From the IMG/VR virus record IMGVR_UViG_3300032893_000059, positions 1-55,581 of that record: a DNA stretch of 55,581 nt; one strand, written 5' to 3'. Both the position numbers and the translations under genes were made by a program. The stretch's first letter is position 1. Each line of letters opens with the position of its first letter. This stretch comes from a virus. A model generated the notes under the pieces. That model did not search any database and was not told the DNA's origin. It worked only from the letters and a program-made list of their open reading frames with translations. This document shows positions 1 to 55,581 of this stretch, piece by piece.

Positions 1-342
1 CGGCAGCGGCAGCGGCATCGGCATCGTCAGCGGCATCGGCAGCGTCATCGGCAGCGTCATCGGCAGCGTCAGCGGCATCGTCAGCGGCATCGTCAGCGGC
101 ATCGGCAGCGGCAGCGGCAGCGGCAGCGGCAGCGGCATCGGCAGCGGCAGCGGCATCGGCAGCGGCAGCGTCAGCGGCAGCGGCATCGGCAGCGGCAGCG
201 GCAGCGTCAGCGTCAGCGGCATCGGCAGCGGCAGCGGCAGCGTCAGCGGCATCGTCAGCGGCAGCGGCATCGGCAGCGGCAGCGTAAGCGGCAGCGTCAG
301 CGGCAGCGTCAGCGGCAGCGGCATCGGCAGCGGCAGCGGCAG
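1..342. repeat. Two-state hexamer array CG(G/T)CA(G/T), left part
   Basis: Fifty-seven uninterrupted hexamers in perfect 6-bp phase. Only positions 3 and 6 vary, each G or T, except one CGTAAG at 283-288. On the minus strand in the coding frame CGGCAG gives Ala-Ala, CGGCAT Asp-Ala, CGTCAG Ala-Asp and CGTCAT Asp-Asp. The array continues at 55457-55581, giving at least 77 units if the ends are joined. Array length in the assembly is uncertain because short reads cannot resolve it. Confidence 0.95.
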
Positions 343-745
343 GCCGGAAGATCGGGATCGTCTTCGGCGCAAGGTCAGCCATGCGCGACCTGGTTCCCAC
401 CACCAGCACGGTCGCGGCGCGACGGATCGCCGCCTTCATTTCGTCCGGGCGAAGGAGGCGACCACAGATCTTTCGCTGTGCTTCGGGATGCTCGCGCAGC
501 CAACGGGCGCAGAACGCCAGGCGCCCAGCAATCCGAGCGACGTCTGGGGATGCGCAGAACACCACGCGCGTCTTCTTACCGTCGAGCCCGATGCTGTTGT
601 AGATGCCACGAATTGCCGCCTCGGCCTTTGAGCGATCCTCGGCAGTCATCGGATCGGTTCTGCGGGCGTTGGCCAGCACCTTGTCTGCCCAGGCGTGCAG
701 CAGCTTTCGGTGCTGCGGGGTCATGTGATAAAGCTTCTTGCCCAT
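1..745 (-). CDS. DUF6745-like protein, N-terminal part (runs off the contig edge, continues at 55581-54729)
   Basis: An open frame starts at ATG 745 (MGKKLYHMTPQH), preceded by AGGA seven bases upstream, and has no stop before base 1. The first ~120 residues fit the N-terminal half of DUF6745 proteins: a PMTAEDRSKAEAAIRGIYNSIG-like segment, then a strand with CASPDVARIAG. From about residue 135 the frame enters the hexamer array and becomes a tract made only of Ala and Asp, plus one Tyr. The same frame emerges from the array at the right end of the window and continues as the DUF6745 C-terminal half, so the two are almost certainly one gene on a circular molecule. Function is unknown; the family is common in phages and actinobacteria. 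Confidence 0.8.
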   Translation of the reverse strand, partial: MGKKLYHMTPQHRKLLHAWADKVLANARRTDPMTAEDRSKAEAAIRGIYNSIGLDGKKTRVVFCASPDVARIAGRLAFCARWLREHPEAQRKICGRLLRPDEMKAAIRRAATVLVVGTRSRMADLAPKTIPIFRPAAAAADAAAADAAADAAAYAAAADAAAADDAADAAAAAADAADADAAAAAADAAAADAAAADAAAAADAAAAAAAAAAADAADDAADDAADAADDAADDAADAADDADAAAAA

Positions 746-754
746 GGTGATTTC

Positions 755-1051
755 CTAGTCCTCGACGGCTCTGTCGCCATCGCCACCGCGCTCGCGCTGG
801 GGACCGATCGAATAATCCCCCTTCGGCAACAAGGTTTCTTTGTGGCGACTGGCATGCACAATCTTGGTCTTTCGAGCCACGCGCACGAGTCGAGCGTCTC
901 GTTCCACGCGGGTCATGCACTTGCCGAGGATCGTGTGCGCCCCCTCGTGGCTGCCGGCGATGACCAGGTTGGTTGCCGGCAAAAGCTTGCCCTTGATGGG
1001 CTTGTCGAGCTTGATAATCCTCTGGTCCCCCTGTAGCGCGAAAATTTCCAT
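755..1051 (-). CDS. Conserved-looking hypothetical protein (98 aa)
   Basis: Starts at MEIFALQG with AAAGGA six bases upstream; a GTG 18 bases further up is possible. The protein has a mixed beta N-terminal half and a very basic, Arg/Lys/His-rich C-terminal half (MTRVERDARLVRVARKTK), which suggests nucleic-acid contact. No family was recognised. It ends about ten bases before the start of the DUF6745-like gene, so the two are probably cotranscribed downstream of the sigma-like gene. Confidence 0.7.
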   Translation of the reverse strand: MEIFALQGDQRIIKLDKPIKGKLLPATNLVIAGSHEGAHTILGKCMTRVERDARLVRVARKTKIVHASRHKETLLPKGDYSIGPQRERGGDGDRAVED

Positions 1052-1073
1052 TGCTGTTCCTTTCGTCACTTAG

Positions 1074-5903: not shown

Positions 5904-6262
5904 GTCGCGTACTCCCTTCGCCTGCCAGCCGCCACGAGCTCGGCCTTCCTTGTGATGAGGGCCAGTCGCCCGCTCGCCCCGCGCTTGCGCCAGTTTCCAA
6001 CCGAGAACGCCGTCGGCGGCGGCTCGTTGCCGGTGCGGATGCCGAGCGCCTTGAGCTGCTGGCACTGCTCACAGGGCGGATCCTGTTTGCACGGGCAGGC
6101 CGCCACAGCATCGCCGCGAGCCTTCTTGGCAAGGCAGCCCTCGCAGCGGTCATCGAAGGTCTTGGGCAAGCTCGGGTCACGTCCGCCGCGGCAGGCTGCG
6201 CACAGGTTTGCCTTGAGCCCCTTGCGGACGCGGCTGGGATGGGAGCTGCGGGGAGGCGTCAG
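5900..6262 (-). CDS. Cysteine-rich zinc-binding protein
   Basis: About 120 aa. The frame carries CAACRGGRDPSL, CEGCLAKKARG and CPCKQDPPCEQCQQLKALG, three Cys clusters typical of zinc ribbons. The frame overlaps the stop of the ATPase upstream. The best start is a CTG exactly at that stop (CTGA overlap), since no ATG or GTG is available in frame before the first Cys pair. It ends with a GTGA overlap to the ASCH gene. The start codon is therefore uncertain, but coding is supported by the tight packing and the Cys pattern. Confidence 0.65.
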   Translation of the reverse strand: MTPPRSSHPSRVRKGLKANLCAACRGGRDPSLPKTFDDRCEGCLAKKARGDAVAACPCKQDPPCEQCQQLKALGIRTGNEPPPTAFSVGNWRKRGASGRLALITRKAELVAAGRRREYAT

Positions 6263-7860
6263 ATGCCCGCCTTGCTGCCCTTGGGCTTCGGCACTTGCTC
6301 GCCTGGCATGACGATCGTCAGCCGGCCCGGCTTCTTGGGTTCCGGCAGCGGCTCCTCGGCTCCCTCGTCGTCGGCATCGATACCGACGATCCGAAGCTGT
6401 CCCGCCTCGACCACGGTGCCGATGATCTGCCAGCCGCCCCGCTTGGCCCGGCGAATGAACTGCTCGCGCAACGCCGGGTCCATCTGCTCCATCTTGTCGA
6501 CCCGCAGGAGCTTGCCGTCGGGCGCGATGCGCTTCACCAGGTCGACGCACAGCTCGGTCTTCTCGCTCTCGGATAGCAGCTTGAACACGTGGCCGTCCAG
6601 CGCGATGTCGTCGTCCACGAAGGTTAGCCCCGGGATCATGTTGGCCCGCTTCGCCAGTTCGGCTGGGGCGTCGTGGTCCAGACGCTTGACGATGTCGTCG
6701 AGCCGCTTGGCCTCGGCCTTGGCGGATTCCAGCTCGTCGGCCAGGGCGCCGGCGGAGGCCTGCGCATCGTGGGCGGCGCGGGCGGAGCGGATGAGGTCGG
6801 CCTTGGCCTGGGCGGTCGTGACCGCCTGGGTGGCGGCGGCAACTTCCTCGGCAGTAGGGGCCGCGATGGCGGTTTCGGTGAGGGTGGCTTCGAGCTCGCG
6901 GGCCTGCGCCCGGAGCGCGGCAGACTTGGCGTCTGACTTCGCGTGCTCGGCCTGCTGCAACTTGGCCCGCTCGACTGCTCGATCCGCCTGTTCGAACGCA
7001 CGTTCGGCTTCCTTCAGCGCGGCCCAAGCGGCATCCTTCGAGGCCAACAAACCGTCCATCACCGCCGCAGGAACGGGAGCGTGCCCGGCCGCGTCCTCTG
7101 CGTCTGCTTCTGCCCGAAGGTCGCTAATCTTCGCCCGCGTCCGCTCGGTACGTCTTGCCACGGACTCGGCCTGCTGGCGGCGCTGCTCCAGTGCTTCCAC
7201 CTGCCACTGCGCCTCCCGAACCGGCGCGTCCTCTTCACCCGGCAGCAGCACCACCACGCCCACGTGCTCGGGCTTCGCTAGCCCGTCGGCCTTGTCCTGA
7301 GCGAGCTTGAGCGCGTGCTTGGCGTCCTCCACCGCGGTGTTGGCCTTGGTTCGCAGGGCGTAGTAGTGGCCGTGCATCTCCGCCACCACCTCGAGCCCGT
7401 GCTTGCCCTCCTCGATCTCCCAAGCCTCGCCGGTCCAGTTCCTGGCGTCTTCTTCGGTCGCGGTCGCCGGCATGGCGGCCAACACCTTGCGGCGGCGCTC
7501 CGCCGATGTGTCGGACGCGAGCTTCAGCGGGTCGATGAGATCGGGGAAGCAGGCGTCGAGCTTCGCCTGCGGGCTGCCGGGGCCGAGGCCGTCGACCTTG
7601 ACCGACTTGGTGCCGTTGCGACGAACGATCGTTTCCACCGTGGCGGTGTCGAACTTCAGAAGCACCCGCCAACGGTCGGCGTCGTCGCAGATGTACTCGG
7701 GGCCAAATCCGCGCGACTTGAGAGCCGCATAGATGCCGTTGGCGAGACTGGTCTTGCCGGACTTGCTCTCGCCGATGAATTGGACGCCAGCGGTTCCGAC
7801 GGAAAACTTGGCGCTCTGGACGCCCATGAACTGCTCGATCTCTACATCCCTCAGCTTCAT
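6259..7860 (-). CDS. SMC/SbcC-like AAA ATPase
   Basis: 533 aa. Walker A GESKSGKTS lies at residues 30-38, after an MKLRDVEIEQFMG opening typical of RecF/SbcC/Rad50 ATPases. Residues ~165-400 are a long Ala/Glu/Lys-rich coiled coil. The C-terminal part has a degenerate ABC signature (LSESEKTEL) and a QIIGTVV strand. Such proteins work in DNA repair and recombination with a nuclease or annealase. The gene is in the block with SSB, ERF annealase and the DUF2800-like protein. GAGGAG lies six bases before ATG. There is no nuclease partner of the SbcD type next to it. Confidence 0.82.
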   Translation of the reverse strand: MKLRDVEIEQFMGVQSAKFSVGTAGVQFIGESKSGKTSLANGIYAALKSRGFGPEYICDDADRWRVLLKFDTATVETIVRRNGTKSVKVDGLGPGSPQAKLDACFPDLIDPLKLASDTSAERRRKVLAAMPATATEEDARNWTGEAWEIEEGKHGLEVVAEMHGHYYALRTKANTAVEDAKHALKLAQDKADGLAKPEHVGVVVLLPGEEDAPVREAQWQVEALEQRRQQAESVARRTERTRAKISDLRAEADAEDAAGHAPVPAAVMDGLLASKDAAWAALKEAERAFEQADRAVERAKLQQAEHAKSDAKSAALRAQARELEATLTETAIAAPTAEEVAAATQAVTTAQAKADLIRSARAAHDAQASAGALADELESAKAEAKRLDDIVKRLDHDAPAELAKRANMIPGLTFVDDDIALDGHVFKLLSESEKTELCVDLVKRIAPDGKLLRVDKMEQMDPALREQFIRRAKRGGWQIIGTVVEAGQLRIVGIDADDEGAEEPLPEPKKPGRLTIVMPGEQVPKPKGSKAGI

Positions 7861-53122: not shown

Positions 53123-53655
53123 GCCACCTTCCTCCGCAGGTCGGGCCCACCCGCAACAAAGAAGGCACCGTCCTCGTTCAGTCTGCTGGCAATGCGCTCC
53201 TTGTAGCGTTCGGCGAATAGTGCGGGGTCGGTGATGTTGGTAGTGATGAGCGTCCGCCGCATCTTCGCGAACCTCCGACTCAGCACCTCGTCGAGGGTGC
53301 AAAGGTAGCGCCCTTTTTCGTCCAGGTACTCCAGACCCAGATCGTCGATGACCAGGCCGTAGGCCGAACACAAGGCCTCGAAGGACTCCTGGTCGTAGGC
53401 GAAGCCGCGGGCGAGGTCACCTGACTGCACCCAGCGCATGCACTCTGTCTTTCCCTTGCACGCGGCAACAAGCCAGAGCATGGCCGCCACGCTCTTGCCG
53501 ACCCCCGGGCGCCCTCCGATGACGAGCAACCCCTTCCAGTCCCGCGATACCCGCTCGGTCGCGTCGGTGGCTGTGGCGTTGATGGAGGCCCTCACGGTGC
53601 GCTCGGGAACGCCTCGGCGCATGAGGGCTGGCAGCATTGCGAGTTCTAGTTTCAT
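53119..53655 (-). CDS. DnaC-like helicase loader
   Basis: 178 aa. Walker A GGRPGVGKS (48-55), Walker B YGLVIDDLGLE (~101-110), sensor TTNIT, with a short N-terminus. Loads the host replicative helicase at the phage origin. ATGA coupling with the initiator gene upstream. Confidence 0.85.
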   Translation of the reverse strand: MKLELAMLPALMRRGVPERTVRASINATATDATERVSRDWKGLLVIGGRPGVGKSVAAMLWLVAACKGKTECMRWVQSGDLARGFAYDQESFEALCSAYGLVIDDLGLEYLDEKGRYLCTLDEVLSRRFAKMRRTLITTNITDPALFAERYKERIASRLNEDGAFFVAGGPDLRRKVA

Positions 53656-54506
53656 GGGACCTGTAGCTCTCCCGTTCTGGTCGGCTCGTCCGAGGTAGCG
53701 GCAAAGTGTCCGCGCGCCGGATCTCGAATCCAGGCGCTCGGAACAGTCGGCGACGAACCGCCGTGGTCCTGACAGCGAGACATCCAACTCACCAGGAATC
53801 TGGCCATCCCCCGTGCGGTCTTGCGCTTCGTTGGATTGGCGTTGATCCAGGCCAGGGCTTTGCGCGCCTCACCGAGAACATCAACGGCAGGGTAGGCGGT
53901 CTCCCACTCCGATCGATTGGCTTCCGTCATGTCCCAGACTTCGGGTGATCCGGAGCAGGGGAACGAAACCAGCGCGGTAGCTGCGACAGCAGGCTCCGCG
54001 CAAGCCTTCTCTTCCTCCCCTTTACTTGTCTTGTCTTGACTGGACTGGTCTTGTCTTGTCTGGTCTGGTCTGGAGGGTATCGTACCGGCTTCGCCGTCGC
54101 CGCGTGCCGGTACGGTGGCAGTACGATGCTGCTTCTTTTCCTCCTCGTGCTTCGCCTTCGCTTCTGCCCTACGCTGCCTATTTTCCTTAGCTTTCTTGTC
54201 CATCTTCTTGATGGCGGCTCCCGTGTAATCCATCCAGTCGTGGATTTCCGCCTCGCCATCCTCTGCGCGTTCGATGAATCCAGAGCCAATGAGCGCTTCG
54301 GCGCATTTGCCGTCCATCGGGGTGTACCGCACAGCTTTCTCGATCGCCCACGCTGTGATCTTTCCAAGCTTGCCGGTCTTCGCGGATCTCACCGCCCACT
54401 TCCAGAGACGTGGCGGGTACGTGTCGGCTCTCTCGTCTTGCAGGCGTGCGCACAGATCAAGGGTCTTCGGATGCTCCCAGTAGCCCTCGTCAATCTCGAT
54501 GTACAT
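53652..54506 (-). CDS. Replication initiator / organiser protein
   Basis: 284 aa. N-terminal winged-helix-like domain MYIEIDEGYWEHPKTLDLCA, GKLGKITAWAIEKAVRYTPM; Lys/Glu/Gln-rich linker containing RPDQTRQDQSSQDKTSKG; C-terminal domain (WINANPTKRKTARGMARFLV SWMSRCQ). Typical of phage O-like initiators whose gene carries the origin. It is followed by the loader. Confidence 0.75.
   Translation of the reverse strand: MYIEIDEGYWEHPKTLDLCARLQDERADTYPPRLWKWAVRSAKTGKLGKITAWAIEKAVRYTPMDGKCAEALIGSGFIERAEDGEAEIHDWMDYTGAAIKKMDKKAKENRQRRAEAKAKHEEEKKQHRTATVPARGDGEAGTIPSRPDQTRQDQSSQDKTSKGEEEKACAEPAVAATALVSFPCSGSPEVWDMTEANRSEWETAYPAVDVLGEARKALAWINANPTKRKTARGMARFLVSWMSRCQDHGGSSPTVPSAWIRDPARGHFAATSDEPTRTGELQVP
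54024..54073. repeat. Iteron-like short repeats inside the initiator gene (candidate origin)
   Basis: Plus strand CTTGTCTTGTCTTGACTGGA then CTGGTCTTGTCTTGTCTGGT then CTGGTCTGG: alternating five-base CTTGT and CTGGT units. Lambda-like phages carry origin iterons at this place in the O gene. The region is less GC-rich than the flanks. Confidence 0.5.
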
Positions 54507-54728: not shown

Positions 54729-55581
54729 TCAGGTGTGCTGGCCGACCTTCAGCGCGGGGTCTCTGTCGCACTCCTCGGCTGTCCACCATCTACCACTCGG
54801 GTCACGGGCCACCCGCCACTTGCGAGCGCCGGCAGCCGTCCTGAGACCTTCGTGGACTGGCTCCAGGTAGTACGGCTGCGATCCGTCTTGCAGCATCGGG
54901 CTTTGCATGCGCAGGTACTGCGAGCGGTCAGAACACCTGATCAGCTCGTACTCCAAGCCGTCGATGGCCGCCTTGTCCACCGGCGAGGATCCGAGCATCT
55001 TCAGAACGCGGTCCCAGCCGAGGTGTTCGCCAAGAGCGCGCCGCTGTTCCGCCGGCAACGCCTTGTATTCATCGCCGGTGTAGGACTCAGGCTGCTCAAT
55101 CAGGCGCCTCGGAACCCTGACACCGTGCCAGTAGAACATACAGGACCCGTCGCTCCACCCGATAGCCGGGCCATCAGCGGAGTGGAGGCGGTTACGCGGG
55201 TCGTTGTGCAACACAGAGCAGCGGTCCGAGACGATGCAGAAGTCGCGGTACATGACCCTCGGGCCCGAGGCAAAGGCTGCAGTCTCAATCTGCGGATAGG
55301 TGCGCCAGTTGATGTCGAGCTTCGCCACGTGGAGGTAGAACCCGCACTTGACGATCCGCCACGTGCGCAGGTTCCCGGCGTGCCAGCGCCGCCACCAATA
55401 CCGCCTGTACGACCGAACGAAGTAGTACGTGCAAGCACCGACGACATCTCGATGGTCGGCAGCGTCATCGGCAGCGGCATCGGCAGCGTCAGCGGCAGCG
55501 TCAGCGGCATCGGCAGCGGCAGCGGCATCGGCAGCGGCATCGTCAGCGGCATCGTCAGCGGCATCGGCAGCGTCATCGGCA
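54729..55581 (-). CDS. DUF6745-like protein, C-terminal part (continues from 745-1 across the ends)
   Basis: Open from the contig end: Ala/Asp tract, then ADHRDVVGACTYYFVRSYRR, YWWRRWHAGNLRTWRIVKCG, VAKLDINWRTYPQIETAAFA, FCIVSDRCSVLHNDPRNRLH, SADGPAIGWSDGSCMFYWHG, VRVPRRLIEQPESYTG. The V-S-D-R-x-x-x-L-H and H-S-A-D-G-P-A-I and W-H-G-V-R-V-P motifs are typical of DUF6745. A GTG at 55328 could start a shorter form, but the frame is open upstream into the array. Confidence 0.8.
   Translation of the reverse strand, partial: ADDAADAADDAADDAAADAAAAADAADAAADAADAAADDAADHRDVVGACTYYFVRSYRRYWWRRWHAGNLRTWRIVKCGFYLHVAKLDINWRTYPQIETAAFASGPRVMYRDFCIVSDRCSVLHNDPRNRLHSADGPAIGWSDGSCMFYWHGVRVPRRLIEQPESYTGDEYKALPAEQRRALGEHLGWDRVLKMLGSSPVDKAAIDGLEYELIRCSDRSQYLRMQSPMLQDGSQPYYLEPVHEGLRTAAGARKWRVARDPSGRWWTAEECDRDPALKVGQHT
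55457..55581. repeat. Two-state hexamer array CG(G/T)CA(G/T), right part
   Basis: Twenty full hexamers plus five bases, same alphabet as 1-342. The last 35 bases (55547-55581) equal bases 19-53. This supports circularity and warns that array length is unresolved. Confidence 0.95.

Follow-up and report, generated by a model that had tools for sequence, protein, structure and literature searches.

The window analysed here is the whole of IMG/VR virus record IMGVR_UViG_3300032893_000059, 55,581 nucleotides long, and its genes include those for terminase, portal, sheath and baseplate proteins, an integrase and replication functions, the gene set one would expect in a temperate, contractile-tailed phage. 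Both ends of the window lie within a tandem array of hexamers, and each array piece adjoins one part of a gene of the DUF6745 family, with a companion gene upstream of the N-terminal part (Table 1).

Table 1 Features of the split DUF6745 locus in the window
Feature	Position	Strand	Description
Hexamer array, N-side piece	1..342	(-)	57 in-register units, (Ala/Asp)n, ~113 residues including 28 Asp and 1 Tyr
N-terminal part of DUF6745 gene	343..745	(-)	ATG at 745; AGGAAA ribosome-binding-like site upstream; homologous to other DUF6745 N-termini
Companion gene	755..1069, stop included	(-)	phrog_27831-type, H..H / QRE motif; stop 9 bp before the DUF6745 start
C-terminal part of DUF6745 gene	54729..55456	(-)	PF20530 DUF6745 domain; stop at 54729
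Hexamer array, C-side piece	55457..55581	(-)	20.8 units, (Ala/Asp)n, ~41 residues including 14 Asp

A DUF6745 gene divided between the ends of the window

The longer array piece consists of CGGCAG (30 units), CGGCAT (13), CGTCAG (11), CGTCAT (2) and a single exceptional CGTAAG, which codes for Tyr, and the shorter one of CGGCAG (8), CGGCAT (6), CGTCAG (4) and CGTCAT (2), followed by CGGCA; their TRF scores were 474-496 and 160-182, respectively. Four positions of the hexamer are fixed and depart once over 77 units. The remaining two are dimorphic for G/T, and between about a quarter and a third of units have the second base at each. These counts confirm the preliminary description of four hexamers with two binary G/T positions and one exception. 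Its reading of each choice as Ala or Asp also holds on the coding (minus) strand, where the units are GCC/GAC followed by GCT/GAT, and the two pieces together code for ~154 residues. Repeated unit words, the signal of block duplication, were not significant against expectation in the window array.

The minus-strand frame is open from the ATG at 745 to base 2, and the other frame is open from 55580 to the stop at 54729. PF20530 matched the C half with 61.4 bits (E = 9.8e-17; gathering score 27 bits), which makes it a member of DUF6745. No Pfam model covers the N half, and the PF20530 model spans neither the array nor the N-terminal block TPEQ..P.DR..AEAA..Y..G....SP; this block was recognised in the N half by eye and by MAFFT alignment with the phage DUF6745 proteins L003 and L004. 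Both flanks are DUF6745-like, as had been proposed, and the N-terminal block and overall order resemble those of other phage members.

The same gene was found intact, as one 518-residue ORF with a PF20530 score of 46.1 bits, in contig IMGVR_UViG_3300038455_000034 (L065), where the N-terminal block is contiguous with the DUF6745 domain and the array is complete with 145 Ala/Asp residues. Positions 5159-6216 of L065 match window 1048..1 and positions 6164-7010 match window 55581..54729, covering the one ORF and the upstream companion gene; nucleotide identity over the two genes is 76-78%, and the proteins are about 79-80% identical. L065 was retrieved only by a DNA-pattern scan for the hexamer. 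Scanning viral contigs with the C half of the window protein gave no relative, a scan with a two-sequence alignment gave no further close relative beyond L065, and the first alignment had been too diverse to serve for scanning.

Because L065 carries the gene in one piece, the ends of the window are, judging from this comparison, adjacent in the molecule. The simplest reading, and a probable one, is that of a genome that is circular, or circularly permuted, and that the assembler cut inside the repeat, its most repetitive part; the circular molecule proposed earlier is supported in this wider form. The related claim of one frame running across both ends stood for the gene, which spans them, and failed for the literal junction. 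When 55581 is joined directly to 1, one frame is offset from the other by a single base, and the C half then reads PMTLPMPL... with an early stop. The last unit of the window is one base short, and both the hexamer register and the frame call for a further base (1 mod 6). The record therefore lacks part of the junction, and the exact unit count is uncertain. No terminal overlap longer than 5 bp was found between the window ends.

Breakage inside arrays is not confined to the window. Of the 19 viral contigs with an array, seven terminate within it, where 0.47 would be expected (P about 1e-7), and IMGVR_UViG_3300032897_000003 is cut likewise, the N half and array forming its tail (L137) and the array and C half its head (L012). 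The arrays break assemblies, and circular phage genomes are then recorded as linear with a single gene divided between the two ends; the window and IMGVR_UViG_3300032897_000003 are examples. As a separate observation, both ends of IMGVR_UViG_3300047509_000145 lie inside an Ala/Val/Asp array of another family (L113 and L123); here too, a circular genome seems to have been cut within a coding repeat.

Comparison also revealed the companion gene, a feature beyond the preliminary description. It encodes a protein of ~110 residues with the pattern GHAHAI ... HEEH ... LPxGxYxVxRQREY. An HMM built from four seeds, window included, matched window 758-1069(-) with 118.8 bits on the same strand as the adjacent DUF6745 gene, and across the records the companion adjoins DUF6745 in 31 of 38 (fused to it in L069), with 27 of the 31 positive records not being seeds. 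Nucleotide similarity between L065 and the window is limited to this ~1.9-kb gene pair, the contigs being otherwise non-syntenic. As the rest of L065 has no nucleotide match to the window, the companion and DUF6745 genes have probably moved as a module, and the pair would behave as a mobile two-gene unit.

Arrays at the same site in other DUF6745 genes

A further 23 DUF6745 genes, drawn from IMG/VR, GenBank phages, plasmids and genomes, have a tandem array at the same site; in most phage members this site is fixed, with a helical N-terminal domain on one side and the DUF6745 domain on the other. The earlier view that the window protein had gained a special insert must therefore be dropped, since most phage DUF6745 genes have an array there, built from a different unit. 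Whereas the window unit is 6 nt long and codes for Ala/Asp, theirs is almost always 12 nt long and typically codes for [G/R/W]-[D/small]-[S/Q/N]-L. Written as X1-X2-(S/Q/N)-L, this unit has Gly, Arg or Trp (NGG) at X1, and sometimes Glu, Asp, Gln or Val; at X2 it has Asp or a single small residue (Gly, Ala, Val), or else a fixed Ser. The window array can be regarded as a 6-nt relative of this 12-nt theme in which the Asp/small choice is kept.

In most 12-nt arrays the first two codons of each unit contain the variable sites, and codons three and four are near-constant; 54 of the 68 variable sites fall in codon positions 1 and 2. Across the 23 arrays, 81 of 1316 fixed codons deviate (34 synonymous, 47 non-synonymous), mostly in degenerate arrays such as L006 and L037. 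Clean arrays are uniform, with CAG in 46/46 and CTC in 46/46 units of L004 and CAG in 70/70 units of L038, and the Leu codon of the fixed site varies between arrays (CTC, CTG, CTT or TTG). Fixed codons that are uniform within arrays and different between them are the signature of homogenisation within each array.

The array is dispensable, given that some DUF6745 members have none (e.g. L005, L008, L019, L044 and L046-L048). In L023 (4710-5713), a DUF6745 gene without an internal array is followed by at least five small ORFs that consist almost wholly of [xxQL] array (MISVKDQL[xxQL]n...REET), are joined by ATGA start-stop overlaps and are apparently translationally coupled. L033 (4735-5195) likewise has a DUF6745 gene without an internal array, followed by at least three similar small ORFs.

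Further members depart from the common layout. On Nocardia farcinica plasmid 3 (L043), the array is partly in a shifted frame, reading GPGVGPGG... before DQVRAQV..., and the annotated gene starts inside the array, owing to a frameshift or a sequencing error. In genome G135 (L042), a DUF6745-like domain is fused behind leucine-rich-like repeats with no short-unit array. A bacterial survey found the domain in 3 of 299 genomes of one phylum, too few for statistics. PHROGs matches of the array to tail proteins were weak and of low complexity and were disregarded. No paper naming DUF6745 or DUF7666 was found in the open literature searched, nor anything relevant on array-bearing phage proteins.

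Turnover of the array units

Array length varies between close relatives. L014 and L016 are 97.2% and 98.6% identical in the two flanks, yet they have 20 and 33 units, respectively, and the X1 alphabet has shifted from Asp to Glu. This repeat-number comparison bears out the variable length suggested before. Unit order in the two arrays is slightly more alike than chance (p=0.025), which means that array turnover is incomplete. Repeated 4-unit words exceeded shuffles in 7 of 19 arrays (L003, L004, L010, L016, L034, L035 and L038), consistent with block duplication. Variants linked over two or three bases, such as GAC/GCT (L010), GAT/GGG (L014) and TCG/GAC, indicate that they behave as discrete unit alleles, and this pattern fits the shuffling of variant units rather than targeted mutagenesis.

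A diversity-generating retroelement, or a like system of targeted mutagenesis, would write the variable bases directly, and the limitation of substitutions to fixed positions would suit it. We regard this as extremely improbable. A search with PF00078 matched no reverse transcriptase in the 24 records covered, window included, although fragments could miss one. A free base would give both Arg codons within an array, but CGG and AGG are mixed in 0 of 23. The linkage of variants over several bases also speaks against it, as does the change in the type of substitution from array to array (G/A, C/A, T/A). The Arg codons and the linked variants also count against random mutagenesis.

Slippage or unequal recombination of a few founder unit variants, together with selection for the residue mix, fits best. 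We infer that duplication, loss and shuffling act on whole units, in steps that are multiples of 3 nt and would preserve the frame, and that unit turnover would homogenise the fixed codons. Selection at the protein level would in turn retain both residue types at the variable codons, Asp and a small residue, and in 12-nt arrays also Gly/Arg/Trp. Slippage had been put forward earlier as a source of varying length and charge; it explains the length, but not the restriction of variation to one or two non-synonymous codons in each unit.

Predicted structure and candidate role of the array product

AlphaFold2 modelled the L065 array, with moderate to low confidence, as two helices of 79 (129-207) and 57 residues (221-277), and much of the DUF6745 core at a pLDDT of 90 or more. 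For the 12-nt array of L014 (period 4), pLDDT was about 50 or less, so a helical rod may not hold for the 12-nt arrays. In both window pieces, Asp spacing peaks at exactly 100 degrees, or 3.6 residues per turn (p=0.0006, any peak). This helical periodicity was not reproduced in the closest relative L065 (p=0.74), nor in L069; as a sign of a helix it is suggestive only, and selection for an amphipathic helix does not hold as a rule across the family. A sequence search of the PDB with DUF6745 gave no relative, and Foldseek matched the core to no solved structure below E=0.7. VIA-align of the core gave a best Z of 3.8 and nothing usable, which does not show a new fold; the sole strong match in BFVD was the DUF6745 protein of Microcystis phage LMM01.

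On these models, the array product is most likely a variable-length, acidic, mostly alpha-helical spacer or rod that would set the distance or charge between two conserved domains. The small array ORFs of L023 and L033 imply that arrays can also be separate peptides, and a pure spacer role does not account for them. The account as a whole, in which a coding minisatellite in one DUF6745 gene of a circular or permuted phage genome was cut by the assembler, evolves by unit shuffling and selection, encodes a spacer and belongs to a mobile gene pair, is one that we hold with moderate confidence.

The arrays might instead be recognition strings comparable to TAL effector repeats or the PRDM9 zinc-finger minisatellite, made of short units with one or two specificity residues and diversified through an arms race against the host or a rival phage. 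Such a role would agree with the restriction of variation to one or two non-synonymous codons in otherwise homogenised units, with the recurrence of chemically extreme alphabets (G/W/R/E and D/small) in unrelated phages, with the great difference in unit order between L014 and L016 despite flanks 97-98.5% identical, and with the free-standing tandem array ORFs of L023. No modular recognition fold known to us is built from units as short as 2 or 4 residues. The low pLDDT of the 12-nt array, the limitation of the window array to Ala/Asp and the lack of a known ligand also weigh against recognition, which we consider unlikely. In its fullest form, recognition would make the DUF6745 arrays a new class of hypervariable string in phages, composed of micro-repeats of 2-4 residues in which one or two variable residues are reshuffled at a faster pace than the flanking genes. 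The strings would sometimes be made as start-stop-coupled mini-proteins in tandem (L023) and would be mobilised with the conserved companion as a two-gene module; we judge this reading quite unlikely to hold.

There are two further readings. The repeat could act as DNA, as a recombination hot spot or a replication or packaging site with an incidental coding frame, and the strong homogenisation at the DNA level, synonymous sites included, the predicted replication initiation protein nearby (53652-54506) and the out-of-frame array of the Nocardia copy could all be cited for it. We give this little credence, because unit sequence is wholly different between phages while protein position and residue alphabets recur, the period is a multiple of 3 and the variable sites favour codon positions 1 and 2. 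An assembly artefact, by which the window array or its length is not real, would be in keeping with a metagenomic contig that breaks in a repeat and with a literal junction 1 nt out of frame. It is nevertheless very improbable, as the hexamer array is complete in the independent contig L065, at 145 residues against the ~154 summed in the window. By this comparison, the array itself is real and only its exact length at the junction is uncertain. If the pattern described here holds, the arrays would offer a ready experimental system for studying how repeats keep at least two residue types at given codon sites while homogenising the rest.

The central repeats of TAL effectors (e.g. PMC4522561), with their repeat variable di-residues, resemble the DUF6745 arrays as near-identical coding repeats that differ at one or two residues and vary in length and order between relatives. 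The DUF6745 units differ in having 2-4 residues, against 34 in TAL effectors, and no known target, recognition being a candidate role here. A TAL-like array would be expected to form a solenoid with a residue-to-ligand code, and the AlphaFold2 models of the arrays offered helices at low to moderate confidence. The PRDM9 zinc-finger array, a rapidly evolving coding minisatellite (PMC8925151), similarly lies in an otherwise conserved protein, but it is eukaryotic and its repeats fold into DNA-binding zinc fingers. Variant units are already known from other coding minisatellites; the 6-nt Ala/Asp form and the division of the gene between the two ends are particular to the window. The serine-aspartate (SD) repeats of staphylococcal Clf/Sdr proteins are encoded by a short tandem DNA repeat and, like the window array, form an acidic dipeptide repeat of variable length between conserved domains. 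They differ in being a bacterial cell-surface stalk and in their Ser/Asp rather than Ala/Asp composition, and no homology is claimed.

Arrays of similar style also occur outside DUF6745. Other phage families (L063, L078, L094, L090 and L117) have Ala/Asp/Val or Ala/Asp/Tyr hexamer arrays and share the N-terminal block C..EA....PHSD.P.CV....R..LND; a Pfam scan of the L063, L078 and L090 proteins gave no match. In L081 (9085-9939), a DUF7666-like protein, below the Pfam cut-off, carries an AAAW/DAA array.
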